Position numbers and translations under genes: made by a program. From the NCBI RefSeq assembly GCF_009769755.1, contig NZ_SDWJ01000001.1:1240001-1304000 (forward strand): a stretch of 64,000 nt of DNA, in the 5' to 3' direction. Below the pieces are notes generated by a model. It ran no database searches. It was given only the letters and a program-made list of their open reading frames with translations, and had not been told where the DNA came from. This document shows, piece after piece, positions 6,325-53,207 of this stretch. Source of the DNA: Sphingorhabdus profundilacus (lineage in GTDB: Bacteria; Pseudomonadota; Alphaproteobacteria; Sphingomonadales; Sphingomonadaceae). Every line of letters starts with the position of its first letter. Position 1 is the first letter of the stretch.

Positions 6325-9300
6325 TCAGAACTTATAGCTCACCCCAACCTGCATGCGCCACAATGAGGAGCTGGTTTGGATGGAGTTATTCTGCTGTTCG
6401 AACGAGTTGCTGACGATATAGCGGCCTGCGCTATCGATGCCGCTAAGGCCGACTGGGCTAACTTCAAATCCGAAACGACGGAACACATTCGCACTGTCGC
6501 TGATTAAATTCAAGAAGTTGTCAAAGTCGACAAACAAGCGGACTGAATCTTCTACACCGAACAATCGTCCTGGCCCAGGCAGTTCCTGACTAAACCGAAG
6601 GTCAAGATCGTAGAATGAATCGTTGGTACAGCTGTTGCGTGGTAAAGTCCGACCCCGGAATTTTGCTACGCAAGGATTAGCCGCCACAAACTTTTCGAGT
6701 TCGGCGACACCGGCGGCATTGGAAGTCGGCGAGAGATTGGGGTCCGTGATGCCCGTTGGAACATAGAGCAATGCATTGTCCGCACCTGAGGCTGCGTCGT
6801 TGAATACCGCTCCGTCGTTCCATGTCACGCTATATGGACGGCCTGAACGTGCAACAAAAACAAATCCGAACTGCGTGTCATAATCTCCAAAGAACTTCTC
6901 TTTGAAGTTCATCGAGAAAGTGAGATTATGCTTGTTTGCAAATTCGCTCGTCGCAACAGCCGAATTTTGGCGATCAAATGCGGCGGCAAAGTCGTAATTG
7001 GAAGTTGCCGTTGCGCTATTGTTGAAACGGTTGTTTTTTGCATCGGTAAATGCATAACCTAGGTTGAAGTTTACACTGCCACCGTCCGTAAACACACCAC
7101 TACCGAACCGTTTTGACAATACAACCGACGCAACATGGCTATCGAAAGCCGCGCCATTTGTCAGCTGTATTTCATCGTCGCGACCGGTGTTGAAACACGC
7201 CGGTGAAACGTTGGAAAACGTAAATCCAGGACCACCGGTGCCGTTCAACTTAGCCGTACATCCGGCTACGGTCGGATCGATCGCACGATAAATGGGCCGG
7301 CCATCGACCGTAAATCCATTGAGGCCTAACCGGGTATCGACCACTTGGGCGAGGTCGACAAAATCAACAGGGTTTTTGAAATGGCTGTAAATATAATCGA
7401 AGTTAAAACCCCAATTGTCAAAGAAGCCACCGTCACCTGAACCAAATTTGGTACCTATGCCGATATTGGCACGTATGACTGTGGGAACTTTAAAGTTTGG
7501 ATCAGTGGATTGCGTATCCGCCAGGCCACGCGCCGAATTCACTCCGGCATCTTTGGCGACGCAAGCCGGGAGACCGGTAAACTGGCCATTCACAACAACA
7601 TCTACACGCGCGCCATTGGCGGGGAAACAACTGGCAACACCAGTTTGACCTGCACCGGTTGCAAATCCGTCGTTCGAAAAAGCGTTAGACACAAAGACAG
7701 CCGGATCGCCGCCGGTGAACACGCCAACCCCGCCTTTGATCTGCGTCGAGCTTAAAAACCCGTCATTGCCGACATCATAAGTGAACCCTAAGCGCGGTAA
7801 AAGAACGGGATCGAATTTTCCGAACGACACTCTGTTGCTAAAGCCATAACGAGCCAGGAAATTGGGGTTGGCTTTCGGTGCATCGCCTTGATACCATTCA
7901 AGCCTGACACCAGCCAAAATGTTTAGGCTATCCGAAGCTTGCCATTTATCCTGCGCCAACACCGAAAAAGTGCGACGCTTCCAAGAAGCTGCGGCATCAT
8001 TGACGTCGCCCGTTGCGGTGAAGTTACCAAAAGCACCCGCAGCTTGAGCGGCAAGAACAGCAGCTGCGTTTGGATTGGTGTTATTTCCGCCCGACAATAT
8101 TCCGTTTCGGAAATCGTTAATGTTGGCAAAGACCAACGTTCCAGTCGAGTTTGGCGCAAACAAATTGAACACATCAAGTTCGTTAAAGTCGACTCCGAAC
8201 AAGAAATCATGGCTATTGCGCTTTAATGAAGCTTGGGCACGAACCTGTGTTATTGTTGTTGCTAGATCATTTGCTGCTCTGAAGAATCCGGGCCCGGCCT
8301 GCAAAGTCCCAACAAATGTTGTTCCGTTTACAACATTGCTGGTTCCAACGATAAAGCGCGGTATTGGATTATCAGACTGTGCTTCACCACCACCGACTGG
8401 TCCCTGCACGTCTTGTACTTCGGCGCGCGAAATACGGATCTGGGTCGAAAAATCGTCCGTCCATTGTGAATAGATGCGGCCTGAGTAGTAATTGGATTGC
8501 GTGCCTTCCTGCTCAAACGTATTCAAACCCGTAAAGTTCGTGCCCGAAAAGTCATCCGGTTCGACATTGAGTTCGTCAAGACGCTGATAGCTGAGTTCGA
8601 CCCGATGATCTTCATTGATATATGCGTCAATACGGCCGAACAAGCGGCGGTTCTTCTCAGGCAAAGTCCGGGCGATGCCGCCAGTATCTTGGCCATAAAC
8701 ATTCTTCAGCACGTCAGAAAATTCATTGAATTGAGCTTCATTGACGAATTTCAGTTCGTTGGCAAAGCCAGCGCCGACAGGACCGTCATCTTGGCTGTCA
8801 CCCGTATCGGTTTCTTCATATCCTAAAGAAAAGAACAGGCGGTCCTTGATAATCGGACCGGAAAGTGTTGCCCCCCAACGATATTCTTTGAATGGAGCTG
8901 GCGTAAAATCAGTTCCTGCAATTGAGTCACCTTGCAAGCCGTCGCTGGCAAAGGTGAAAAAGGCTGTGCCGTGAAAATCATTTTGGCCGGCCTTGGTTAC
9001 AACGTTGATCGCGCAACCGGTAAAGGCACCATATTGAACGTCAAAAGGTGCAAATTCGACTGACGTTTCCGCAATCGAATCAAATGGCAATGGCAAAGAG
9101 TTACGCGATGCGAATGGCGTTCCGTTCAGGCCAAAAACATCGGACTGAAGTATGCCGTCAACAGAAAATGCGTTCGATCGATCATTCCCGCCGAGACAAG
9201 AAATACGGTCAACTTCGTCGGTACGATCTAGGCTGACGCGCGGGTCAATGCGGATGATATCGCGGATGTCGCGGGTAATGGAAGGAAGATTTTCAAGTTC

Positions 9301-9735
9301 ATCTGCACCGAAAGACGCGCCTGGCCCGATTGCCAAACGAGTCAATTGTGCTCGGGCCCCTGAAACAACAATGGTCTCCGCATCGGCACCGCTTGCCAGC
9401 GCGAATTTGAGTTGGGAATTGCCCTGCAGGTTGATGTTTACATTTTCAACAGTCTGCCCTTCATAACCATCGGCTGTAGTCGTTACCGAATAGGGTCCGC
9501 CAGTTGTCAACGTATCGGCACGGAAAAAGCCGTTGCTGTCTGTCGTCAATGTGCGCGTGTTTCCTGTACGGGTATCGGTTACTTTAACCGAGGCGCCCGA
9601 TATCGCGGCGCCTGATGCATCGTTCACTTGGCCTTCAATACCCGATGTGATTTGCTGGGCAGAGGCAGGAACAGCAACGACAGACGCAATCGAAAGGGCC
9701 GCAGCACTGGCGGCCAAAAAATAACGAAGTTGCAT
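6325..9735 (-). CDS. Oar-type TonB-dependent outer-membrane receptor, copy 1
   Basis: The product (1136 residues) is a large outer-membrane receptor of the Oar-like family. A signal peptide (MQLRYFLAASAAALSIASVV...ASAQ, about 1-27) precedes a carboxypeptidase-regulatory-like beta-sandwich (about 30-115: SGIEGQVNDASGAAISGASVKVTD). A plug domain (about 120-260) carries SVDGI and VVTKAGQNDFHGTAF. A long beta-barrel follows and ends in WRMQVGVSYKF with the expected C-terminal Phe. Members of this family take up unidentified substrates with TonB energy. It is paralogous to the next gene, with near-identical signal peptides and matching plug motifs. A Pho-box-like element lies 105 bp upstream of the ATG. 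It ends at the terminator shared with mtgA. Substrate unknown. Confidence 0.88.
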   Translation of the reverse strand: MQLRYFLAASAAALSIASVVAVPASAQQITSGIEGQVNDASGAAISGASVKVTDTRTGNTRTLTTDSNGFFRADTLTTGGPYSVTTTADGYEGQTVENVNINLQGNSQLKFALASGADAETIVVSGARAQLTRLAIGPGASFGADELENLPSITRDIRDIIRIDPRVSLDRTDEVDRISCLGGNDRSNAFSVDGILQSDVFGLNGTPFASRNSLPLPFDSIAETSVEFAPFDVQYGAFTGCAINVVTKAGQNDFHGTAFFTFASDGLQGDSIAGTDFTPAPFKEYRWGATLSGPIIKDRLFFSLGYEETDTGDSQDDGPVGAGFANELKFVNEAQFNEFSDVLKNVYGQDTGGIARTLPEKNRRLFGRIDAYINEDHRVELSYQRLDELNVEPDDFSGTNFTGLNTFEQEGTQSNYYSGRIYSQWTDDFSTQIRISRAEVQDVQGPVGGGEAQSDNPIPRFIVGTSNVVNGTTFVGTLQAGPGFFRAANDLATTITQVRAQASLKRNSHDFLFGVDFNELDVFNLFAPNSTGTLVFANINDFRNGILSGGNNTNPNAAAVLAAQAAGAFGNFTATGDVNDAAASWKRRTFSVLAQDKWQASDSLNILAGVRLEWYQGDAPKANPNFLARYGFSNRVSFGKFDPVLLPRLGFTYDVGNDGFLSSTQIKGGVGVFTGGDPAVFVSNAFSNDGFATGAGQTGVASCFPANGARVDVVVNGQFTGLPACVAKDAGVNSARGLADTQSTDPNFKVPTVIRANIGIGTKFGSGDGGFFDNWGFNFDYIYSHFKNPVDFVDLAQVVDTRLGLNGFTVDGRPIYRAIDPTVAGCTAKLNGTGGPGFTFSNVSPACFNTGRDDEIQLTNGAAFDSHVASVVLSKRFGSGVFTDGGSVNFNLGYAFTDAKNNRFNNSATATSNYDFAAAFDRQNSAVATSEFANKHNLTFSMNFKEKFFGDYDTQFGFVFVARSGRPYSVTWNDGAVFNDAASGADNALLYVPTGITDPNLSPTSNAAGVAELEKFVAANPCVAKFRGRTLPRNSCTNDSFYDLDLRFSQELPGPGRLFGVEDSVRLFVDFDNFLNLISDSANVFRRFGFEVSPVGLSGIDSAGRYIVSNSFEQQNNSIQTSSSLWRMQVGVSYKF

Positions 9736-9839
9736 ATACTTAGATCCTCAATACTTTTGGTCTGTCGCAAGTTCCGCATCTAGCGTGACGAATCCGTGCG
9801 AATTGAGTGATCGTAACGCGCCCCCATTGGCGCTAAATA

Positions 9840-9857
9840 ATTGCAGTTATATGACAA
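9840..9857 (-). promoter_or_regulatory. Pho-box-like element upstream of TonB receptor copy 1
   Basis: Read on the minus strand the sequence is TTGTCAT-ATAA-CTGCAAT. This is two 7-base half-sites separated by 4 AT bases, as in the PhoB consensus CTGTCAT-N4-CTGTCAT (6/7 and 5/7 matches). The same element stands at the same distance from the start of receptor copy 2. The match and spacing are seen; regulation by PhoB is inferred. Confidence 0.5.
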
Positions 9858-9887
9858 AATCAAGGTCTATGCCGCAGTTGCGAACAA

Positions 9888-9917
9888 CAAAAAAAGGCGG
9901 AGCCGAAGCCCCGCCTT
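9888..9917 (-). terminator. Rho-independent terminator of TonB receptor copy 2
   Basis: On the minus strand a 10-bp stem AAGGCGGGGC/GCTCCGCCTT (one G-U pair) with a TTCG tetraloop is followed by seven T. It lies 24 bp past the receptor stop codon and just upstream of the promoter region of copy 1, so the two receptor genes are separate transcription units. Confidence 0.88.
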
Positions 9918-9940
9918 ATTATTTTTCATTGGCTTAAGAG

Positions 9941-12900
9941 TTAGAAGCTAACTTTTACACCCACGCGAATGCCATAAAGCGACTGGCGTGAAACCAGGTC
10001 AACATTGGGCGATACCACGTTAGAATAGCGATATTGCGCGCATGTCTGTGTGCTTGTTGTATTCACAACCGCAGGCAGATTGTTCGGGTTTTGGGCCGGT
10101 GTGCTGCCAATGTTTACAACGCCCGTTCCGCTTGGAACCGCGGTGCTCAGACACTGAACATTGGCGATTGTCGCAGCATAGGGGAATGCCACCTGACGCA
10201 GCGCGCCCCAATCATGGTCGATGATGTTCAAGACATTTTCGATATCCGCAAACAGCTTCAATTTGGCACCGCCGATAAACAAGGGCAATTCCTGGCTGAC
10301 GCTCAGGTCGACCTTGAAAAAGTCAGGCGATGTCTGCGAATTCTTCGGCAAGATCTTGCCGCGGAATTTCTCAAGACCAAGGCTGGTGACCAGCGAGTTA
10401 AACGCGGTTTCGGCCTGTGCTGCTGTTTGGACGACGACATTGTTCACAACATTGTCGCCAAAGGAAACCCGTGTATCGCCAATTGTCGGAACATAGAGCA
10501 AATGGCGGCTGCCTGTGCCGGTTGTTCCAAACACCGCGCTTCGTGCAGATGAGCTTGTTCCGGTGCTGTCAAATGAGGTCAGGCTGAACGGACGGCCTGA
10601 TCGATATTCACCAAACAGGCTAAAACGTGTTTCATTGTCGCCAAAGAATTCCCGCTTGAAGTTAACACCGAATTTCCATTGATCCTTGATCTCATAGATC
10701 GAGCGACCGTAAGATGCTGCATTTGGCGTGTTGAACACATTGTTGTTGTACAAGGAACCGGCTGTCGTCGATGTAATGGCATTTTCATCCTTTACATCTG
10801 ACCGCGTATAGCTGCCTTCGATACCAAGCCCGAAGTCCCATTGTTTGGAGATACGCGCCACGGCAACATAGCTGCGTCCGCGTGTGCTGTTGGTCATCAA
10901 AAGGTCCTGGTTGGGACCCGATGTGCCTGGCAAATTGCCAAAGCGCGCGCGGCCATCAGGCAATGTGCCAATCTGCACCGAACGGATGTCGGTCCATTGA
11001 TAGGCCTGCAAGACGTCGCCATAAAGGAAGTTGCCGCCAAGCAACCAGCCATCGCCCAAAGGACCAAGGTCCGCGTCATAATCGACCGACAATGTCGCCC
11101 GCAATTGACGCGCAATCTTCAAATCAGGGTCGATTGCATTGACTGGCGCATTTTGGAGCGACGAGACGTTGGTCGCAAGAAACTGGCCAACCAAACCCGG
11201 AATGGTTGAAAGCGAAACATTGTTTAACGCAGCCGCACAAATGGCCGCCACATTCGGTGTCGTTGCCGCAATATTGCACCCTGCAGCTGACGTATTACGG
11301 TCAATGGTTACAGAATTGGTAAGCTGACCCGTGTTCGAAAAGCTGTTCGACAGGAACACGTCCGGTGTACCGCCGGCAAAAATCCCAACGCCGCCCTTGA
11401 TAATCAGCCGGTCCGTCGCTTCATAGCTAAAGCCGACCCGTGGCTGAAATACGCCGCGACCATCAAAGGTTACGCGGTTTGAAAAGCCTTGGCGGGTCAC
11501 AAAATTGGGGTTCAACAGCGGCTTTTCTTCGTTCGCAAACAGGTCATAACGGGCACCGAGATTCAATAGAAGCTTATCGGTAACCTGCCAATCATCCTGC
11601 AGACCAAAGGTAAAGCTGGAGCTGCCAAATTCGGCTGCGCCGTCATTGGGATCAAGGCTTGGCACCGCATTTTGATAGATTAAGCGCCCTGCATTGCCCG
11701 CCTGAAAATCGGCGACCGAGTCAAAATAGAATACACCCAGTGAACTTGGAACAAACAAGTTGAAAACATTCGTCTGTGAATAGCCGAACAATGCCTTGAA
11801 CTGGTGATCGCCCGCATCCAGCCGTGCCGTGAAATCAATCGACAGATTGTCGGTGTTCAAAGCGTTCGCATGACGGAACTGATCGGGGCCGAAGAAGATG
11901 CGGGGAACGCCATTGGTGCACGACGTCACCGATCCTGCGGTAACGGCATCGGCGCACACAGCGATTTCGCCAAGCGTTGTCGCGCCATAAGGCGTCTGAC
12001 CACGATTATAGTCACGGTAAGAAGCGCGTAGCTCGGTCGAGAATTTTTCCGACCAGTTGCTGTTCAGTTGGAACACACCGGAATTCACTTCTTCCGACAA
12101 TTCATAGCCGGTCGAGAACAGGCCAAGCGTCGGGCTGGACGTGCTGGTCGAGGTGTTGCGCTGGTTGGCCTGTGTGCCGACGTTGCGGATATAGGTGAAT
12201 GACGCACGGTGGTCGTCATTGACGTTCCAATCGAGCTTGGCGACGATTTTCTCGTCTTCTTCAATACCGTTCAGAATAACGCCCAATGTGTCGTAGCTGT
12301 ACCGGGTTTGGGCAATCGTGCTGATTTGATCAACCAGTGCCTGGCTCACGCCCGGAATTGGCGCGGAGAATCCCTGACCTTGCGGGCCACTATCAAATGG
12401 ATCGCTTTCTTCGGTCTTTTCATATGCAATCATGAAGAACAATTTGTCCTTGATGATTGGACCCGAAAGTACGCCGCCATATTGCTTCGAATCGAAATCC
12501 AGAATGATGTCGCGGCCCTTGGTGCGCGAGCCGGTCAGATTTTCATCGGTGTAGGAATAAAAGGCGGAGCCATGGAATTTATTTCCGCCGGAACGCAGCA
12601 AGACGTTGATCGCGCCGCCCTGAAAGTCACCTTCCGAAACATCATAAGGGGCAACCTTGACCGAAAACTGTTCGATGGCATCCAGTGGTACAGGACCGCG
12701 TGATGTTGGCAAGCCACCGTTGTTGAGGCCGAAATCGTCGGAAAACTGGGCGCCATCAACCGAGAAACGGTTCAAACGGCCATTTTGCCCTGCGATTTCA
12801 ATCGTCCGGCTATTGGTAAGGTCGATGGTTGCGAACGGATCGCGGCGTGCAAGGTCGCGAATGTCGCGGTTAATTGATGCGACGCCTTCAATATCTTCAC

Positions 12901-13321
12901 GGTTCAATACGGTGATCGGACCGCTTGAACTTTCCGTAGCCCCTTGAAGTGCAGACGCGGTTACGACGATTTCCTGCTGGGATTGCAGAATGATCGGCAA
13001 GCGAAACGCCTGGCCTGCGCTCAGCGAGAGGTCGGTAATTTGCGCTGTTTCAAAACCGGCCGCGTCAACGGTTACGGTGAATGGCCCGCCGATGCGAAGG
13101 CCATTGGCGCTGAAATTGCCGTCCGCGTCAGACGTGCTGGTTGCCGTTGTACCCGATGGCTCATGCACAACCGTTACCGTCGCGCCAGCAACAGGACCTT
13201 TGTCACTCTCGATCGTCCCACGAACTGACGACGTTGTTTCCTGCGCCATAACTGGTGTGGAAACAGAAACCGCGATTGATAACGCAGCGGCACTGGCGGC
13301 TAAATAGTAGCGAATTTTCAT
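9941..13321 (-). CDS. Oar-type TonB-dependent outer-membrane receptor, copy 2
   Basis: The 1126-residue receptor has the same architecture as copy 1. It has a signal peptide (MKIRYYLAASAAALSIAVSVSTP...MAQ), a regulatory-like beta-sandwich (SSVRGTIESDKGPVAGATVTVVHE), a plug with SVDGAQFSDDFG and NVLLRSGGNKFHGSAFY, and a C-terminal barrel ending GIRVGVKVSF. I chose the ATG at 13321 because it begins the signal peptide. An in-frame ATG 99 bases upstream would add a non-signal stretch and would start only 4 bp from the Pho-like box. Plug motifs are shared with copy 1, but the barrels differ widely, which suggests an old duplication with different substrates. Terminated by a strong hairpin. Substrate unknown. 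Confidence 0.88.
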   Translation of the reverse strand: MKIRYYLAASAAALSIAVSVSTPVMAQETTSSVRGTIESDKGPVAGATVTVVHEPSGTTATSTSDADGNFSANGLRIGGPFTVTVDAAGFETAQITDLSLSAGQAFRLPIILQSQQEIVVTASALQGATESSSGPITVLNREDIEGVASINRDIRDLARRDPFATIDLTNSRTIEIAGQNGRLNRFSVDGAQFSDDFGLNNGGLPTSRGPVPLDAIEQFSVKVAPYDVSEGDFQGGAINVLLRSGGNKFHGSAFYSYTDENLTGSRTKGRDIILDFDSKQYGGVLSGPIIKDKLFFMIAYEKTEESDPFDSGPQGQGFSAPIPGVSQALVDQISTIAQTRYSYDTLGVILNGIEEDEKIVAKLDWNVNDDHRASFTYIRNVGTQANQRNTSTSTSSPTLGLFSTGYELSEEVNSGVFQLNSNWSEKFSTELRASYRDYNRGQTPYGATTLGEIAVCADAVTAGSVTSCTNGVPRIFFGPDQFRHANALNTDNLSIDFTARLDAGDHQFKALFGYSQTNVFNLFVPSSLGVFYFDSVADFQAGNAGRLIYQNAVPSLDPNDGAAEFGSSSFTFGLQDDWQVTDKLLLNLGARYDLFANEEKPLLNPNFVTRQGFSNRVTFDGRGVFQPRVGFSYEATDRLIIKGGVGIFAGGTPDVFLSNSFSNTGQLTNSVTIDRNTSAAGCNIAATTPNVAAICAAALNNVSLSTIPGLVGQFLATNVSSLQNAPVNAIDPDLKIARQLRATLSVDYDADLGPLGDGWLLGGNFLYGDVLQAYQWTDIRSVQIGTLPDGRARFGNLPGTSGPNQDLLMTNSTRGRSYVAVARISKQWDFGLGIEGSYTRSDVKDENAITSTTAGSLYNNNVFNTPNAASYGRSIYEIKDQWKFGVNFKREFFGDNETRFSLFGEYRSGRPFSLTSFDSTGTSSSARSAVFGTTGTGSRHLLYVPTIGDTRVSFGDNVVNNVVVQTAAQAETAFNSLVTSLGLEKFRGKILPKNSQTSPDFFKVDLSVSQELPLFIGGAKLKLFADIENVLNIIDHDWGALRQVAFPYAATIANVQCLSTAVPSGTGVVNIGSTPAQNPNNLPAVVNTTSTQTCAQYRYSNVVSPNVDLVSRQSLYGIRVGVKVSF

Positions 13322-13423
13322 GTGTTGGATTCCCATTATTTTATAATCCATCCGGATATTCGCATCTTGTGTGTCGAATTTAGCCGAACGGGGAGGTGAT
13401 GTTTTTCGCCATGAAAGCAAAAA

Positions 13424-13441
13424 ATTGCAGTTATGTGACAG
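13424..13441 (-). promoter_or_regulatory. Pho-box-like element upstream of TonB receptor copy 2
   Basis: The minus-strand reading is CTGTCAC-ATAA-CTGCAAT. The first half-site matches the PhoB half-site except at its last base (CTGTCAC also occurs in known Pho boxes), and the second matches 5/7. It is 103 bp upstream of the chosen ATG, almost the same offset as the copy 1 element (105 bp). The spacer ATAA and the second half-site are identical in both. Confidence 0.52.
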
Positions 13442-13600
13442 CCAAATCGACTGGTGGACGCATACGTATCAATGGTAGATAGCAAGCAAAATATTGCAGC
13501 GCACAATTTTATGCAACGCCCTAAAATTGCTTCTATTTTTGGTGCAATGTTGCGTTATTGCAACAGTGAAGGTTTATTCAGCCCACACCGGGAATTTGGC

Positions 13601-29446: not shown

Positions 29447-29802
29447 ATGCTTTCCAGTTTTCCGTTGACGATCCGCCGGTAGAAACAACTGCGCGCGCCT
29501 GTATGGCAGGTCGGACCTTCGGGTTTTGCGATGATCCATATGGCGTCCTGATCGCAGTCAACCCGCATTTCCACGATATGAAGAAAATGTCCGCTGGTTT
29601 CGCCCTTTTGCCACAATTGCTGACGGCTGCGGGAAAAAAAGACCACCGTCCCGCTTTCCTGACTTTTTGCCAGTGAATCGGCGTTCATATGCCCGACCAT
29701 CAATAAAGTACCGTCGGTTGAATCGGTGACGACCGCCGTCAACAGTCCATCGCCATCAAATTTCGGATCGAGCGCCAAGCCTGTTTCACGTAAGTTGGTC
29801 AT
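29443..29802 (-). CDS. hisI: Phosphoribosyl-AMP cyclohydrolase
   Basis: HisI opens the purine ring of phosphoribosyl-AMP, the third step of histidine synthesis. The 119-residue stand-alone enzyme has [30 protein letters not shown] and the metal-binding VDCDQDA...[11 protein letters not shown]. No fused HisE domain is present, and no other his gene is in the window. It is divergent from purF across about 130 bp. Confidence 0.95.
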
Positions 29803-29932
29803 GAAAATGCGATTAAACCATGCAAAAAATCTGCGCCAACAATTTCTTTATGACACTATCACGACAAGGGGGAAGACAATCAGGCGAAGCATGCCTATAT
29901 GCAGCCAGCGCAGCGCAGCGGGATTCGATAAA

Positions 29933-31390
29933 ATGCTGACCACCGACCCTTTTGATGACGACAAACTTCGGGAGGAGTGCGGGATTTTCGGCGTCTATGA
30001 CACCGAAGGCGCTTCCGCCATGGTGGCGCTCGGCCTCCATGCCCTTCAGCATCGCGGTCAGGAAGCGGCTGGTATCACCAGCTATGATGACCATGATTTT
30101 CATACCCACCGGGCAATGGGGCATGTTGCCGGAAATTTCGACCGTGAAGAAATTATCGGCGGATTGGTCGGGCGTTGCGCGATCGGTCATGTGCGATATT
30201 CGACGACCGGCGAAACTTCGCTTCGCAATGTGCAGCCGCTATATGCGGACCTTGCAACCGGCGGGTTCGCAATCGCGCATAATGGCAATATTTCCAATGC
30301 GATGGCAGTTCGCAAAGATCTGGTACGCCGTGGTTCGATATTCCAGTCAACGTCCGATACCGAAGTCATCATCCATCTCGTCGCAACATCAGGTTATCGA
30401 ACATTACTCGACCGTTTGATCGACGCGTTGAAACGGGTTGAGGGCGCCTATTCGCTGATCTGCCTCACCACAGAAGGGATGATCGCCTGCCGCGACCCGC
30501 TGGGCATTCGCCCATTGGTTATGGGCAAGCTTGGCGATACGATTATTTTTGCGTCGGAAACCGTTGCGCTGGATATTGTTGGCGCAGAATATATCCGTTC
30601 CGTCGAACCGGGCGAACTGATCGTCGTCCGCAATGGCGAGATTCATTCACACAAACCCTTCATTCCGGTCGCCCAGCGCCCGTGCATATTTGAACATGTC
30701 TATTTTTCCCGCCCGGACTCGATTGTCGAAGGCATCAGCGTTTATTCGGTGCGTAAGGCCATTGGTGCCGAATTGGCGCGCGAAAACGGGATTGATGTCG
30801 ATTATGTCATTCCTGTCCCCGATAGCGGAACACCCGCCGCCATCGGCTATGCCGAAGCGGCAGGCATCCCCTTTGAACTGGGGATCATCCGGTCGCATTA
30901 TGTCGGTCGCACCTTCATTCAGCCCGGCGACGGCGTGCGCCATTTAGGTGTGAAGTTGAAGCATAATGCGAACAAGAATCTTGTCGCGGGCAAGAAAATT
31001 GTCCTCATTGACGATTCGATCGTGCGCGGCACGACGTCGCTGAAAATCGTGCAGATGATGCGCGAAGCAGGCGCCGCAGAGGTGCATATGCGGATCGCCA
31101 GCCCGCCCACGATGAACAGTTGCTTTTACGGCGTCGACACGCCCGAACGGTCCAAATTGCTCGCCAGCCGGATGGATGTCGAAGAAATGCGGAACTTTAT
31201 TCAGGCCGACAGTTTGGCATTTCTGTCGATAGACGGACTGTATCGTGCCTTGGGTGAAGACGCGCGGAACAATGGCAAGCCGCAATATTGCGATGCATGT
31301 TTCACCGGCGATTATCCCACAAGCCTGACCGACCATGAAGAGGCAGAAGCTGGTGACCTCATCATGCTTGGCGAAAGAAAGCTTGCCTGA
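29933..31390 (+). CDS. purF: Amidophosphoribosyltransferase PurF
   Basis: PurF makes phosphoribosylamine from PRPP and glutamine, the first committed step of purine synthesis. I chose the ATG at 29933, which leaves a 15-residue propeptide before the catalytic Cys of CGIFGVYD; in-frame starts further upstream run antisense into hisI. The 485-residue product has an N-terminal glutaminase domain (ALGLHALQHRGQEAAGI, HNGNISNA) and a PRTase domain with the PRPP loop VLIDDSIVRGTTS and RIASPP. It is followed at 3 bp by an SDR gene, so probably co-transcribed. Confidence 0.95.
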   Translation: MLTTDPFDDDKLREECGIFGVYDTEGASAMVALGLHALQHRGQEAAGITSYDDHDFHTHRAMGHVAGNFDREEIIGGLVGRCAIGHVRYSTTGETSLRNVQPLYADLATGGFAIAHNGNISNAMAVRKDLVRRGSIFQSTSDTEVIIHLVATSGYRTLLDRLIDALKRVEGAYSLICLTTEGMIACRDPLGIRPLVMGKLGDTIIFASETVALDIVGAEYIRSVEPGELIVVRNGEIHSHKPFIPVAQRPCIFEHVYFSRPDSIVEGISVYSVRKAIGAELARENGIDVDYVIPVPDSGTPAAIGYAEAAGIPFELGIIRSHYVGRTFIQPGDGVRHLGVKLKHNANKNLVAGKKIVLIDDSIVRGTTSLKIVQMMREAGAAEVHMRIASPPTMNSCFYGVDTPERSKLLASRMDVEEMRNFIQADSLAFLSIDGLYRALGEDARNNGKPQYCDACFTGDYPTSLTDHEEAEAGDLIMLGERKLA

Positions 31391-47358: not shown

Positions 47359-48960
47359 TTACGCTGCTTTTGGTGCGGACTGCCTTACACCTTCATCGAC
47401 ATGATCGGCAAATTGCGCGAAATTATCAATGAATTGCTGGACCAGATTGCGGGCCGTTGCATCATAATCCGCTTTGTCAGCCCAGGCTTCGCGCGGATTG
47501 AGGATGGCGCTGTCGACGCCGGGAACCGCTACGGGGAATTCGAAACCGAAATTCGGATCCTTCTGGAATTCCGCATTGTTCAGGCTGCCGTCAAGCGCGG
47601 CATTCAACAGGGCGCGCGTTGCTTTGATGGGCATGCGGCTGATGCCGGGCATCGTCGCTTTGCCGCCGGTCCAGCCGGTGTTGACCAGCCAGCATTGCAC
47701 GGCGCCCTTGGCAATCCGCTCTTTCAGAAGATTGCCATATATGCTGGGGTGACGCGGCATGAAGGGCGCGCCAAAACAGGTCGAAAAGGTTGCTTCGGGC
47801 TCGGTCACGCCGATTTCCGTACCCGCGACGCGTGCGGTGTAGCCTGACAGGAAATGGTACATCGCCTGTTCCGGTGTCAATTTCGCGATGGGAGGCAGGA
47901 CGCCATAGGCATCGGCGGTCAGCATGATGATATTCTTGGGCACAGGGCCCATATTCTTTTCCGACGCATTCGGGATGAACTCGATCGGGTAAGACCCACG
48001 GCTGTTTTCGGCCAGGGTCGCATCGTCAAAGTCGAGTTCGCGCGTTTCGGGGTCCATGACAACATTTTCCAGCACGGTGCCGAAACGCTTTGTCGTCGCG
48101 AAGATTTCTGGCTCGGCTTCTTCGGACAGGCGGATCATCTTGGCGTAGCAGCCGCCTTCGAAATTGAATACGGCCGTGTCGGACCAGCCATGTTCATCAT
48201 CGCCGATCAAAGTGCGGCTGGCATCAGCGGACAATGTCGTCTTGCCGGTACCTGATAGACCGAAAAACACCGCCGTATCGCCCTTTGGCCCGATATTGGC
48301 GGAACAGTGCATCGGCATGACACCCTTTACCGGCAACAAATAGTTGAGAATACCGAATACCGATTTTTTCATTTCGCCGGCATAGGCCGTGCCGCCAATC
48401 AGGATCAGCTTTTCGGTAAAATTGACCGCAATCACCGTTTCGCTGCGGCAGCCGTGGCGCGCAGGGTCAGCCCGGAAACTGGGCAGATCAATGATGGTAT
48501 ATTCGGGAATGAAGGTCGCCAATTCGGCATGTGTTGGCCGAACCAGCAATGTGCGGATGAACAGATTGTGCCAAGCCAGTTCATTGATGACGCGCACGTT
48601 GACGCGGTGTTCGGGTTGCGAGCCGCCAAAAAGATCGGCCACATACAGCTTTTCCTTGCCACCAAGAGCCGCAAGAAAATCTTCCTTCAGCGCAGCAAAA
48701 TGGGCAGGATCCATCGCCACATTTGTCTTGCCCCACCAGATGCTCTGTTCCGTTTCGGCATCACGAACAATGAACTTGTCCTTGGCGGAACGGCCCGTGT
48801 GCGTGCCTGTTTTTACAACCAGCGGGCCATTTTTGGCCAAATGGCCCTCACCATTTTGAAGTGCGGCCTCCACCAGAGGGGCGGTGCCCAAGTTTGAAAG
48901 CACATTCGCAGTGGTTGCAATGCCTTGCTGTTCAAGTGAGATATTCAAAGCCACGGACAT
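47359..48960 (-). CDS. pckA: Phosphoenolpyruvate carboxykinase (ATP)
   Basis: PckA converts oxaloacetate to PEP in gluconeogenesis. The 533-residue product has [16 protein letters not shown], the kinase P-loop [24 protein letters not shown] and the C-terminal [11 protein letters not shown] chose the ATG at 48960; an in-frame start 87 bases upstream adds an unlikely extension. It is divergent from chvI, the conserved arrangement in many alphaproteobacteria, where ChvI affects pckA transcription. Confidence 0.96.
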
Positions 48961-49105
48961 CACAAAACTCCCCAGTCGGAAAATAGCAGATCGCGAATCT
49001 AGGGCATACGTATGCACTAGATGTTGCGGCGCCGGTAGCCGAGACAAAAGAAAACGTCAAATGCAATGGATTGAACCTGCGCCCGGACGGCCCTATAGCC
49101 ATCCT

Positions 49106-49813
49106 ATGAGCGCAACAATCGCCCTTGTGGATGATGACCGAAATATCCTGACATCCGTCTCAATCGCGATGCAGGCCGAAGGATATGTGACCCGGCTTTA
49201 TCCGGATGGGGAAAGCGCGTTAAAGGCGATCATCGATAATCCTGCGGATCTTGGTATATTCGATATCAAGATGCCGCGCATGGACGGCCTCGAACTGCTC
49301 CGCAGGTTGCGTGAAAAAAGTGATATGCCGGTGATTTTTCTGACCTCGAAAGACGAAGAATTGGACGAGGCGCTGGGGCTTGCGATGGGCGCCGACGATT
49401 ATATCACCAAACCATTTTCGCAACGTTTGTTGATCGCGCGGGTGAAGGCCATATTGCGGCGCGCCACATATGATCGGCCCACGGCCAGCGGCGAACCTAC
49501 CGAGGAACCCGAACCGATGGTGCGTGGCCGATTGGAAATGGACCCTGCGCGGCACCACGTGAAGTGGGACGGAAAATCACTGACCCTGACCGTGACCGAA
49601 TTCATGATTTTGGAGGCGCTGGCCAACCGGCCCGGTGTGGTCCGCACGCGCGATCAATTGATGGATGCGGCGTATCAGGACGATGTCTATGTCGATGATC
49701 GCACGATCGACAGCCATATCAAACGCTTACGACGCAAGTTCCGGGAAGTAGACCCTGATTTTGCCGCTATCGACACATTATATGGGGCCGGTTATCGCTT
49801 CGCCGATAGTTGA
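49106..49813 (+). CDS. chvI: Two-component response regulator ChvI
   Basis: ChvI is the OmpR-type regulator of the ChvG-ChvI acid/envelope-stress system. The 235-residue protein has a receiver domain ([11 protein letters not shown], phospho-acceptor Asp in [15 protein letters not shown], Lys in DDYITKPFS). A winged-helix output domain follows ([48 protein letters not shown]). I chose the ATG beginning [11 protein letters not shown]. The end overlaps the chvG reading frame by about 30 bases. Confidence 0.93.
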
Positions 49814-51362
49814 GCCCGCTGATTTGCAGTTGGGTTGGAGCCGGGGGTTATCGTTGACCGCCCGTATTCTGGCCGTGAATCTGTTTGTTCTGGCCTTGCT
49901 TGGTGCCGGGCTGTTCTTTCTGGACAGCTATCGGGTCAGGTTGATTGAAGAGCGTCAATCCGCCGCGCGAACCCAAACCGAATTTCTGGTGCGAAGCCTG
50001 CCGCTGGTTCCTGTCGAAAAAAGGGGTGTATATGTTGCAGCATTCGGCGCGAAAAACATGTCGCGAATCCGGATTTATGACGGATCCGGACGCAAGCTGC
50101 TGGATAGTTTCGAGCTGGGTGAACCCACTTATGTTTTCCGGGATCCCGAAAAGGAACCGGTAAGGAAAATTGCGGCGCGCTTTATTGATCGGGTATTCGA
50201 TTTCCTCGTTCTTTCTCCGGAGCTGGACGCCTTTATCGAACCGAAAATCGACACCGCGCGCGCCTGGCCTGAACTCCGGCAGGGCAAGGCCGGGGTTGCA
50301 CACTCCTCGGCAAGATTTGCGCCGGATCTTACCCATGTAATTAGCGCAGGGGCCGCAGCGCCCAGCGGCAATTTTAGCGTACTTAGCACGGCCAATGAAC
50401 GGGATATCCGCCTGTTTGTGCGGGCAGAGCGCTTCAAAATCGGTATGTTTTTCCTGCTTGCATTGGGTATCGGGATATTGCTGTCGATGTTTTTGGCCCG
50501 CACGATTGTCCGGCCGTTGCGGCATCTTGCCCGGGCGGCGGTCAAGGTGCGGCTGGGCCGGGCGCAAGAGGTAACCGTTCCGCGATTGCCTTCGCGCCGT
50601 GATGAAATCGGCATGCTGGCGCGGGCATTGTCGGATATGAGCATAGCGTTGCGGCAGCGCATTGACGCTACCGAAGCTTTTGCCGCGGATGTGGCGCACG
50701 AAATCAAAAACCCGCTGGCATCGCTCAGATCGGCACTTGACGGGGCAGAACGGATCGAAGACCCTGCACTTCGCAAACAATTGATGGATGTGGCAAAAGC
50801 GGATGTGCTGCGGATGGATCGGCTGATTAGTGACATTTCAGATGCCAGCCGCGTGGACTCTCAATTGGCAAAGGCCAAGTTCGAACCTATTGATCTGGGC
50901 GACATGATCGAACAATTGCTCCAGGCCCGCGAACACAGGGATAGTGATGGCGATGTTAACATAGCCTATGCCCGCCCCCACAAAACAATCGCGACGGTTA
51001 TGGGTGAAGACGTGCGGCTGGAACGTATGCTGACGAATTTGATCGACAATGCGGTTTCTTTTTCTCCACGCGGTTCAGTTGTTGAAATTTCAGCCACTCT
51101 AGCAGAAGATGAAGTCATTATACGCGTTAGCGATGAAGGCCCCGGAGTTCCAGAGCAAGACCGCGAGGCGATATTCCGCCGATTTCATAGCGAACGACCA
51201 GCTTCTGAAAATTTTGGCAAACATAGCGGGCTAGGCCTCGCAATTGCACGAACAATTGTCGAAGGACATCATGGCCGTATTTCGGTTAGAGATCGAGTCG
51301 ATGGCAAACAAGGCGCCTGCTTTGAAATTGCCCTGCCTTGTGCCTCATCATCGAGCCAATGA
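49782..51362 (+). CDS. chvG: Sensor histidine kinase ChvG
   Basis: ChvG senses periplasmic signals and phosphorylates ChvI. The product of about 526 residues has an N-terminal membrane segment ([23 protein letters not shown]), a periplasmic sensor domain, a second membrane segment ([20 protein letters not shown]), and HAMP ([17 protein letters not shown]). HisKA has the phospho-His in [17 protein letters not shown], and the ATPase boxes are [18 protein letters not shown] and GLGLAI. The start is uncertain: ATG at 49782 (used here) overlaps chvI; TTG codons at 49824 and 49830 are alternatives. Third-position GC falls sharply from about 51050 to the end. The stop overlaps hprK (ATGA). Confidence 0.9.
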
Positions 51363-51835
51363 AACGCGAGTTGGTTCATGCTACCGCAGTCGCTGTGAAC
51401 GGCCATGGTGTTTTGTTGATTGGCCCGTCCGGTTCTGGAAAGTCCGATCTTGCCCTCCGTCTCATTGATCGCGGTGCTGTTTTAATAAGTGACGATGTCG
51501 TGCTGGTCGAAACTGGCAAGCGCGCGCCTTCAATCGGTATCGCGCCCAATATTGAAGGCCAAATCGAGTTGAGAGGTGTTGGAATCGTCCAAGTCAGCCA
51601 TATCCAAAGCGCCAGTTTGCGAATCATAGCCCAAATGGTACCCAGTGTAGAGCGCATGCCACCAAGTGAACTTAAAACCGAATTGGCTGGCTATATTGTC
51701 CCACTTTTAAAAGTAACTCCATTTGAAGCCAGCGCACCTTTGAAAGTCGAGTATGCTTTACGTTCGGTCATTGACGATGACATATGGCCAATGGCACTGT
51801 CCTCTAATCGACCTTCCGAAAGCCCGTTCCATTGA
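51359..51835 (+). CDS. hprK: HPr kinase/phosphorylase, short form
   Basis: HprK phosphorylates HPr on Ser46 and so tunes PTS signalling. The 158-residue protein has only the catalytic C-terminal domain, as usual in alphaproteobacteria: Walker A LIGPSGSGKSDLALRL, VLISDDVVLVE and the ELRGVGIVQV signature. It lacks the N-terminal domain of Firmicute enzymes. ATGA overlap with chvG and TTGA overlap with rapZ point to one coupled transcript. Confidence 0.9.
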   Translation: MKRELVHATAVAVNGHGVLLIGPSGSGKSDLALRLIDRGAVLISDDVVLVETGKRAPSIGIAPNIEGQIELRGVGIVQVSHIQSASLRIIAQMVPSVERMPPSELKTELAGYIVPLLKVTPFEASAPLKVEYALRSVIDDDIWPMALSSNRPSESPFH

Positions 51836-52797
51836 CCCGAAAATCCAGCCATAAAGTGCAAACTATATTACTGGTGACCGGTCTGTCGGGAGCTGGAAAA
51901 ACCACTGTTTTGAAAACGTTAGAGGATTTGGGATGGGAAGCTGTCGATAACTTCCCTATTCGTCTCGCGGGTGCGTTGCTCGACATACCGGCATCTGGCG
52001 GGCGTTCAAATCCATCAATCCCGTTAGCTCTTGGGTTTGATAGTCGCACCCGCGGTTTCAAGGCAGACGCCCTTATACGACAGATAATGCAGCTTCAAAA
52101 GCGCGCAGAACTTAACATCATGACGCTTTTTCTGGATTGTTCCGGTGCGGAAATCGAACGGCGTTACACAGAGACACGCCGCCGTCACCCTATGGCCCTC
52201 GACCGGCCTGCAATGGACGGGATTGCCCAAGAACGCATGATGATGGAGCCACTGCGCCGCTGGGCCGAAACGGTCGTCGACACTAGCAAAATGTCCGCCA
52301 ATGAACTGCAAAACGATATTCGGACTCGCTTTTCAAACAATGCAAATTTGCATTCGACAATATCAATCACCAGTTTCGGCTTTTCCCGCGGTGTGCCGCA
52401 TAATGTTGATCTGGTATTTGATTTGAGATTTCTCAGGAATCCACATTGGGACAATGCGCTTCGTCCGTTGACTGGAATGGATCCGGAAGTGGCCCAATAT
52501 GTCGAATCCGACCCGGCATATGCAGAGGCCATGTTCAAGATTAGAGAGTTACTGAGATTCCTTTTGCCGCTTTATGACGCGCAAGGAAAAGCTTATGTCA
52601 ACATCGCATTTGGCTGCACTGGTGGGCGTCACAGGTCGGTACATGTTGCAGAGCAATTCGGCAAATGGTTGCGTGATGACGGTTTTTCGCCCACGGTTGT
52701 TCATCGTAATCTGACGTCAAGACCGATTGACGCACTGGAGGGGCCTGCTAACGGCGCCAATAACAAAAAGGCTAAACGGGGTAGCGAACGCAAATGA
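51832..52797 (+). CDS. rapZ: RNase adapter / nucleotide-binding protein RapZ
   Basis: RapZ-family proteins bind nucleotides and, in E. coli, sRNAs that control amino-sugar synthesis. The role in alphaproteobacteria is less clear. The 321-residue product has Walker A VTGLSGAGKTTVLKTLED, the conserved DNFP, LALGFDSRTRG, and the C-terminal FGCTGGRHRSVHVAE motif. It starts with TTG overlapping the hprK stop. By my hand count only 34 of its first 74 codons end in G or C, low for this window. Confidence 0.9.
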   Translation: MTRKSSHKVQTILLVTGLSGAGKTTVLKTLEDLGWEAVDNFPIRLAGALLDIPASGGRSNPSIPLALGFDSRTRGFKADALIRQIMQLQKRAELNIMTLFLDCSGAEIERRYTETRRRHPMALDRPAMDGIAQERMMMEPLRRWAETVVDTSKMSANELQNDIRTRFSNNANLHSTISITSFGFSRGVPHNVDLVFDLRFLRNPHWDNALRPLTGMDPEVAQYVESDPAYAEAMFKIRELLRFLLPLYDAQGKAYVNIAFGCTGGRHRSVHVAEQFGKWLRDDGFSPTVVHRNLTSRPIDALEGPANGANNKKAKRGSERK

Positions 52798-53207
52798 TCG
52801 GGTTGATTTTGGTAACGCATGGCAGATTGGCGGAAGAATTTCTTGTGGCGCTCGAACATGTCGTGGGCCCTCAACAAAACATTGCAACTGTGTGCATAGG
52901 GCCACGCGATGATATGGAGGGACGGCGTAAAGAAATCGCCGCCGCGATTAAGCAGGTCGAAATCGGCGATGGCGTCATCATTCTCACCGACCTTTTTGGA
53001 GGAACACCCTCCAACCTATCCATCTCTCTTTTGGATGCAGGGCGGGTTGAGGTTATTGCGGGTGTCAACCTGCCAATGCTAATCAGGCTGGACAGTGCAC
53101 GCAAGAATATGAACGTGCGTGAAGCGGTTGCTGCTGCGCGTGAGGCTGGCCGGAAATATATCAGCGTCGCCTCCGAAGTTTTGGAGGCATCGCGTGAGCA
53201 GGCTTAG
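52794..53207 (+). CDS. PTS EIIA component, mannose (EIIA-Man) type
   Basis: The 137-residue protein has the phospho-acceptor His in GLILVTHGRLAEEF and the DLFGGTPSNLSISLL motif of the mannose-family EIIA. In this operon type it lacks EIIB/C/D partners and serves as a phosphoryl-sink or regulatory protein of the nitrogen/carbon PTS. It overlaps rapZ (ATGA) and HPr (14 bases). Confidence 0.9.
   Translation: MIGLILVTHGRLAEEFLVALEHVVGPQQNIATVCIGPRDDMEGRRKEIAAAIKQVEIGDGVIILTDLFGGTPSNLSISLLDAGRVEVIAGVNLPMLIRLDSARKNMNVREAVAAAREAGRKYISVASEVLEASREQA

Follow-up and report, generated by a model that had tools for sequence, protein, structure and literature searches.

What controls the tandem pair of Oar-type TonB-dependent receptors that follows clpX in Sphingorhabdus profundilacus, and does the 18-bp element repeated before both genes place them under PhoB? 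We analysed a 64-kb stretch (the window) of this 2.9-Mb genome, which is assembled in three contigs. The receptors, termed R1 and R2, and the elements first needed here are:

9941..13321, minus strand: R1, Oar-type TonB-dependent receptor, 1126 aa (Pfam PF13620 and PF25183)
6325..9735, minus strand: R2, Oar-type TonB-dependent receptor, 1136 aa (Pfam PF13620 and PF25183)
13424..13441, minus strand: Pho box of R1, CTGTCACATAACTGCAAT, 22.3 bits (pstS-trained matrix)
9840..9857, minus strand: Pho box of R2, TTGTCATATAACTGCAAT, 21.9 bits (pstS-trained matrix)
9894..9917, minus strand: strong intrinsic terminator between R1 and R2, 10-bp stem and T tail

Both proteins exceed the cut-offs for PF13620 and PF25183, representing an N-terminal carboxypeptidase-regulatory-like domain and an Oar-like barrel (OMP_b-brl_4), and they are about 35% identical to each other. 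R1 comprises a signal peptide, the carboxypeptidase-regulatory-like domain, a TonB-box-like EIVVTA and the beta-barrel, the peptide and the motif having been recognised by reading the sequence; the same reading of translated R2 finds ETIVVSG, so that a TonB box, one mark of Oar-type receptors, can be read in both. All PF25183 matches in the genome fall inside R1 and R2, so at this threshold it has no other Oar-type receptor. The named relatives of R1 belong for the most part to the Sphingomonadales, Sphingorhabdus among them, and a sequence search against solved structures returned no R1 relative. The terminator between the two genes implies that R2 probably needs its own promoter.

Both receptor genes carry a Pho box of the pstS type

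The first-pass annotation had described the two 18-mers as minus-strand elements with the 7-4-7 layout of PhoB sites, and the sequence bears this out: half-sites CTGTCAC and CTGCAAT (R1) or TTGTCAT and CTGCAAT (R2) flank the linker ATAA, giving two 7-bp half-sites in 11-bp phase with an 11-bp core identical in both boxes. The offsets of 105 bp (R2) and 103 bp (R1) it had reported hold as coordinate differences from the ATGs at 9735 and 13321; the bases lying between box and ATG number 104 and 102, respectively. Escherichia coli Pho promoters carry CTGTCAT-N4-CTGTMAY, with half-sites 11 bp apart, the box replacing the -35 element and a -10 element about 10 bp downstream. A genome search with the E. 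coli-type consensus CTGTCAYAWAWCTGTMAY ranks the R1 box above every other site, at 1 mismatch; the R2 box is one of three sites with 2 mismatches, and one of the other two precedes a calcineurin-like phosphoesterase gene. The pattern TGTCAYATAACTGCAAT, at up to 3 mismatches, finds these two sites only in the window (0.31 expected), and the two boxes are the sole perfect matches to TGTCAYANNANTGYMAY in the whole genome. Allowing 1 mismatch raises the count to 12, against none for TGTCAYANNANTGYMAY reversed as a control.

These genome-wide counts are pattern searches; for the window and promoter regions we used an 18-position matrix, obtained by expectation maximisation on the DNA upstream of pstS in 68 other genomes of the Sphingomonadales. 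Training started from the E. coli consensus, left out the receptor promoters and converged to CTGTCATAAAACTGTAAC. Both receptor boxes score above the pstS median of 20.6 bits and above the genome's own pstS box (18.8 bits), compared to a best score of 10.5 and a median of -2.0 bits among 91 control upstream regions. They thus match the boxes of bona fide Pho genes in the same lineage, and within the window they rank first and second. The third-best score in the window, 17.6 bits at 29850-29867 on the minus strand, lies within the start of an ORF (29726-31390) and is probably due to chance. The second half-site, CTGCAAT, is one base off CTGTAAT, although pstS boxes too can contain TGCAAT.

The box had been expected to be enriched at pst/pho promoters, and the genome-wide pattern does recover pstS twice as well as an elpS-like/type II secretion (T2SS) cluster. 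The ten 1-mismatch sites of TGTCAYANNANTGYMAY include two overlapping sites before pstS, one before a 523-aa lipoprotein gene that has a TonB receptor gene and the T2SS genes C, D, E, F, G, J and K behind it, one before the gene of a small TPR protein adjoining the elpS-like cluster, and one (C2:379144, 21.3 bits) upstream of a PmtA/OlsG-related methyltransferase gene, suggesting possible phosphate-controlled lipid remodelling. This row of genes, with the Pho box in front of it, lies at C1:31637 and C1:33000-45100; the label elpS-like refers to lipobox, size and gene order, not to an alignment with ElpS. The genome also encodes the regulatory machinery, as phoR-pstSCAB-phoU-phoB: PhoB lies above the TIGR02154 cut-off, and phoR, pstS, ORFs read as pstCAB, and phoU adjoin it. 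A gene of the phosphate-selective porin O/P family (L095:10193-11704) is situated directly after the pst operon and convergent to phoB.

Promoter anatomy suggests two separate PhoB-activated promoters

Downstream of the boxes, four further elements were placed:

13408..13413, minus strand: CATGGC, inferred -10 hexamer of R1, separated from the box by exactly 10 bp
9824..9829, minus strand: CAATGG, inferred -10 hexamer of R2, separated from the box by exactly 10 bp
13361..13379, minus strand: second block of R1, ATTCGACACACAAGATGCG (local alignment)
9775..9793, minus strand: second block of R2, ATTCGTCACGCTAGATGCG (local alignment)

Alignment on the box of 13 receptor promoters, namely the two in the window and those of congeners in the genus, revealed that TGTCA and, in the second half-site, TG are kept in 13/13 and that an invariant CA follows exactly 10 bp after the box, within hexamers such as CAATGG, CATGGC and CAAGGG. 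The congeners' pstS promoters have TA exactly 10 bp after the proximal box in 25/25 cases, for the most part as TAATGG; all 25 contain four half-sites in 11-bp phase, and they use the same half-sites as the receptors, e.g. CCGTCACATAACTGTAAC and ATGCAAT. A box followed by a 10-bp spacer is the layout expected where PhoB replaces the -35 element. The -10-like hexamers are poor sigma70 matches, a simple promoter scan detecting no promoter there, and such a departure from TATAAT is as expected for activator-dependent promoters. From this arrangement we infer start sites near 13401 (R1) and 9817 (R2), with leaders of about 80 nt.

The promoter DNA around the boxes had been judged otherwise not alike. 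Downstream of the box the two promoters are indeed only 27% identical, but that judgement fails in one respect, as a second common block, ATTCGnCACnCnAGATGCG, lies 44 and 46 bp downstream of the R1 and R2 boxes, with a local alignment score of 31 that was reached by 0/1000 shuffles. ATTCG-type sequences related to this block occur near the same distance in several congeners.

The PhoB-site reading had already been put forward in the first-pass annotation and is strengthened both by the pstS-only matrix, on which the two boxes exceed the pstS median, and by a succession of box, 10-bp spacer and -10-like hexamer as in pstS. Judging from these sequence features, it is very likely that both 18-bp elements are the PhoB sites of two separate PhoB-activated, sigma70-type promoters. 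Under phosphate limitation, PhoR would phosphorylate PhoB, a PhoB dimer would bind the two half-sites in place of a -35 element, and RNA polymerase would be recruited to the weak -10 downstream, with transcription starting about 80 nt before each receptor ATG. R1 and R2 would be induced separately, the R1 transcript ending at the terminator before R2. Both receptors are thus very probably switched on in phosphate shortage, where the extra receptor would most likely serve TonB-driven transport of a phosphorus-bearing compound.

The box is kept in orthologues and accompanied by a candidate second operator

The box scores higher in the promoters of R1 and R2 orthologues than in controls (Mann-Whitney p of 4e-8 for R1 and 4e-10 for R2, indicative values that overstate independence because the promoters are related). 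The box is kept with few weak exceptions, namely some R2-type orthologues with boxes of 6-10 bits. Boxes of 19-21 bits precede the Oar-type genes of Hyphomonas relatives and Paraferrimonas, and boxes of 19 bits stand before Oar-type genes in an alphaproteobacterial family further removed; several other distant homologues lack the box. This pattern points to a conserved extension of predicted PhoB control to the Oar-type subfamily. It is possible, if doubtful, that such control is old and widespread among the Oar-type receptors of Alphaproteobacteria (Sphingomonadales, Hyphomonas and others) and marks an undescribed outer-membrane transport route of phosphate starvation, perhaps a secretory one as in Myxococcus.

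A further conserved element lies upstream of the R1 box:

13548..13565, unstranded: palindrome TGTTGCAATAACGCAACA, TGTTGC-N6-GCAACA, 0 mismatches, 106 bp upstream of the R1 Pho box

The palindrome has 23 sites in the genome when up to 1 mismatch is allowed, compared to 3 for the control; 5 of the 23, R1's included, precede TonB-dependent receptor genes, and one of these five lies beside a lacI-type gene. Furthermore, it stands before many Oar-type orthologues, where its spacing to the Pho box is constant: about 105 bp among members of this genus and about 67 bp for several other genera. Being over-represented and kept at a fixed distance, it suggests that R1 is probably under double control and makes TGTTGC-N6-GCAACA a candidate sphingomonad TonB-receptor operator. 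A literature search for the palindrome gave no match. As a factor for it we considered PhaR/AniA, whose core YGCRNYGCR (PMC12542648) fits many of the orthologous sites but not that of R1; the feature common to the sites is therefore the outer dyad.

Import, export and the identity of the regulator

Import of a phosphorus compound by R1 and R2 is plausible by analogy and is favoured by Caulobacter, where PhoB controls several TonB receptors presumed to import alternative donors of phosphate (PMC11208175). The receptors could instead be PhoB-controlled and yet, like Oar, help to export an enzyme such as a phosphatase in phosphate starvation, without importing phosphorus. We consider this a serious, though less likely, alternative. 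The Oar-type architecture common to R1 and R2 speaks for it, since in Myxococcus xanthus the protease PopC needs Oar for its TonB-powered secretion, also when the system is rebuilt in E. coli (PMC6434023). Protein secretion is, moreover, prominent among the genes that PhoB regulates in Caulobacter, which include the T2SS (PMC11208175). On the other hand, TonB receptors mostly import, no cargo gene was noticed beside the two receptors, and the box before the elpS-like gene already ties phosphate starvation to type II secretion in this genome. Gene neighbourhood adds little to the choice: R1 orthologues in several Sphingomonadaceae adjoin clpX or clpP, those of Hyphomonas adjoin apparent agmatine-deiminase-type genes (by eye), and the elpS-like protein had no match when searched against the orthologue flanks. 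Beside the orthologues looked at, no phosphorus-metabolism genes were noticed, so the neighbourhood does not decide between import and export.

Members of the OmpR/PhoB family recognise similar direct repeats. Given this similarity, and with five full-length OmpR-type regulators in the genome, the boxes might be bound by another member of the family, e.g. a ChvI-like one, in place of PhoB. One strong PhoB homologue (OmpR-type, 182 bits) is even encoded in the window, at about 49106-49801. Against such a regulator, a matrix built from pstS sites only scores the receptor boxes above most pstS sites themselves, and on inspection neither 18-mer contains the published ChvI motifs, TTGC-N3-GCAA in Caulobacter or GCC-N8-GCC in Sinorhizobium (PMC9731502); we therefore regard binding by a regulator other than PhoB as improbable and retain PhoB as the predicted activator. 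At 48884-53207 this OmpR-type regulator is followed by consecutive ORFs that, judged by size and order, may form the chvI-chvG-hprK region, the regulator's identity being the one assigned by profile. The last explanation, that the motif recurs by chance or survives from the duplication which gave rise to R1 and R2, could draw on the identical core and the tandem paralogues, but it is refuted at the sequence level and barely credible, since an unselected 18-mer would have decayed at such protein and promoter divergence, base composition predicts about 0.1-0.5 sites this good per genome, and orthologues in other genomes keep the box.

PhoB control of R1 and R2 would have practical consequences. 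Sphingomonads have dozens of TonB receptors of unknown substrate, and assigning a conserved receptor subfamily to the regulon of phosphate starvation leaves fewer candidates for what it carries. Phosphate starvation also offers a simple condition for telling apart two roles of Oar proteins, uptake of phosphorus compounds and export of enzymes.

Comparison with known systems

The receptor boxes resemble the E. coli Pho box in their two 7-bp half-sites and 11-bp phase, at 1-2 mismatches from consensus, and differ from it in the second half-site CTGCAAT and in a -10 of the form YAWnGG. R1 and R2 share with Myxococcus xanthus Oar the carboxypeptidase-regulatory-like domain, the TonB box and the barrel; in contrast to the predicted control of R1 and R2, Oar is tied to PopC secretion (PMC6434023) and is not known to be under phosphate control. 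In Flavobacterium, the SusCD-like PusCD, a TonB-type system of the outer membrane, is reported to be linked to phosphorus acquisition (PMC8115612); PusCD is a SusC/SusD pair of Bacteroidetes, whereas R1 and R2 are Oar-type.

The closest parallel is the PhoB regulon of Caulobacter crescentus, with which this genome shares PhoR-PhoB and PstSCAB, and TonB receptors that are predicted to be PhoB-controlled here and are PhoB-dependent there. The order elpS, TonB receptor, T2SS also recurs: in Caulobacter, ElpS is made in phosphate starvation (PMC2996285), and here a Pho box precedes the elpS-like gene. The boxes described here precede a tandem Oar-type pair near clpX. The control of R1 and R2 is accordingly an extension of a known regulation, that of PhoB-regulated TonB receptors, and not a new kind.
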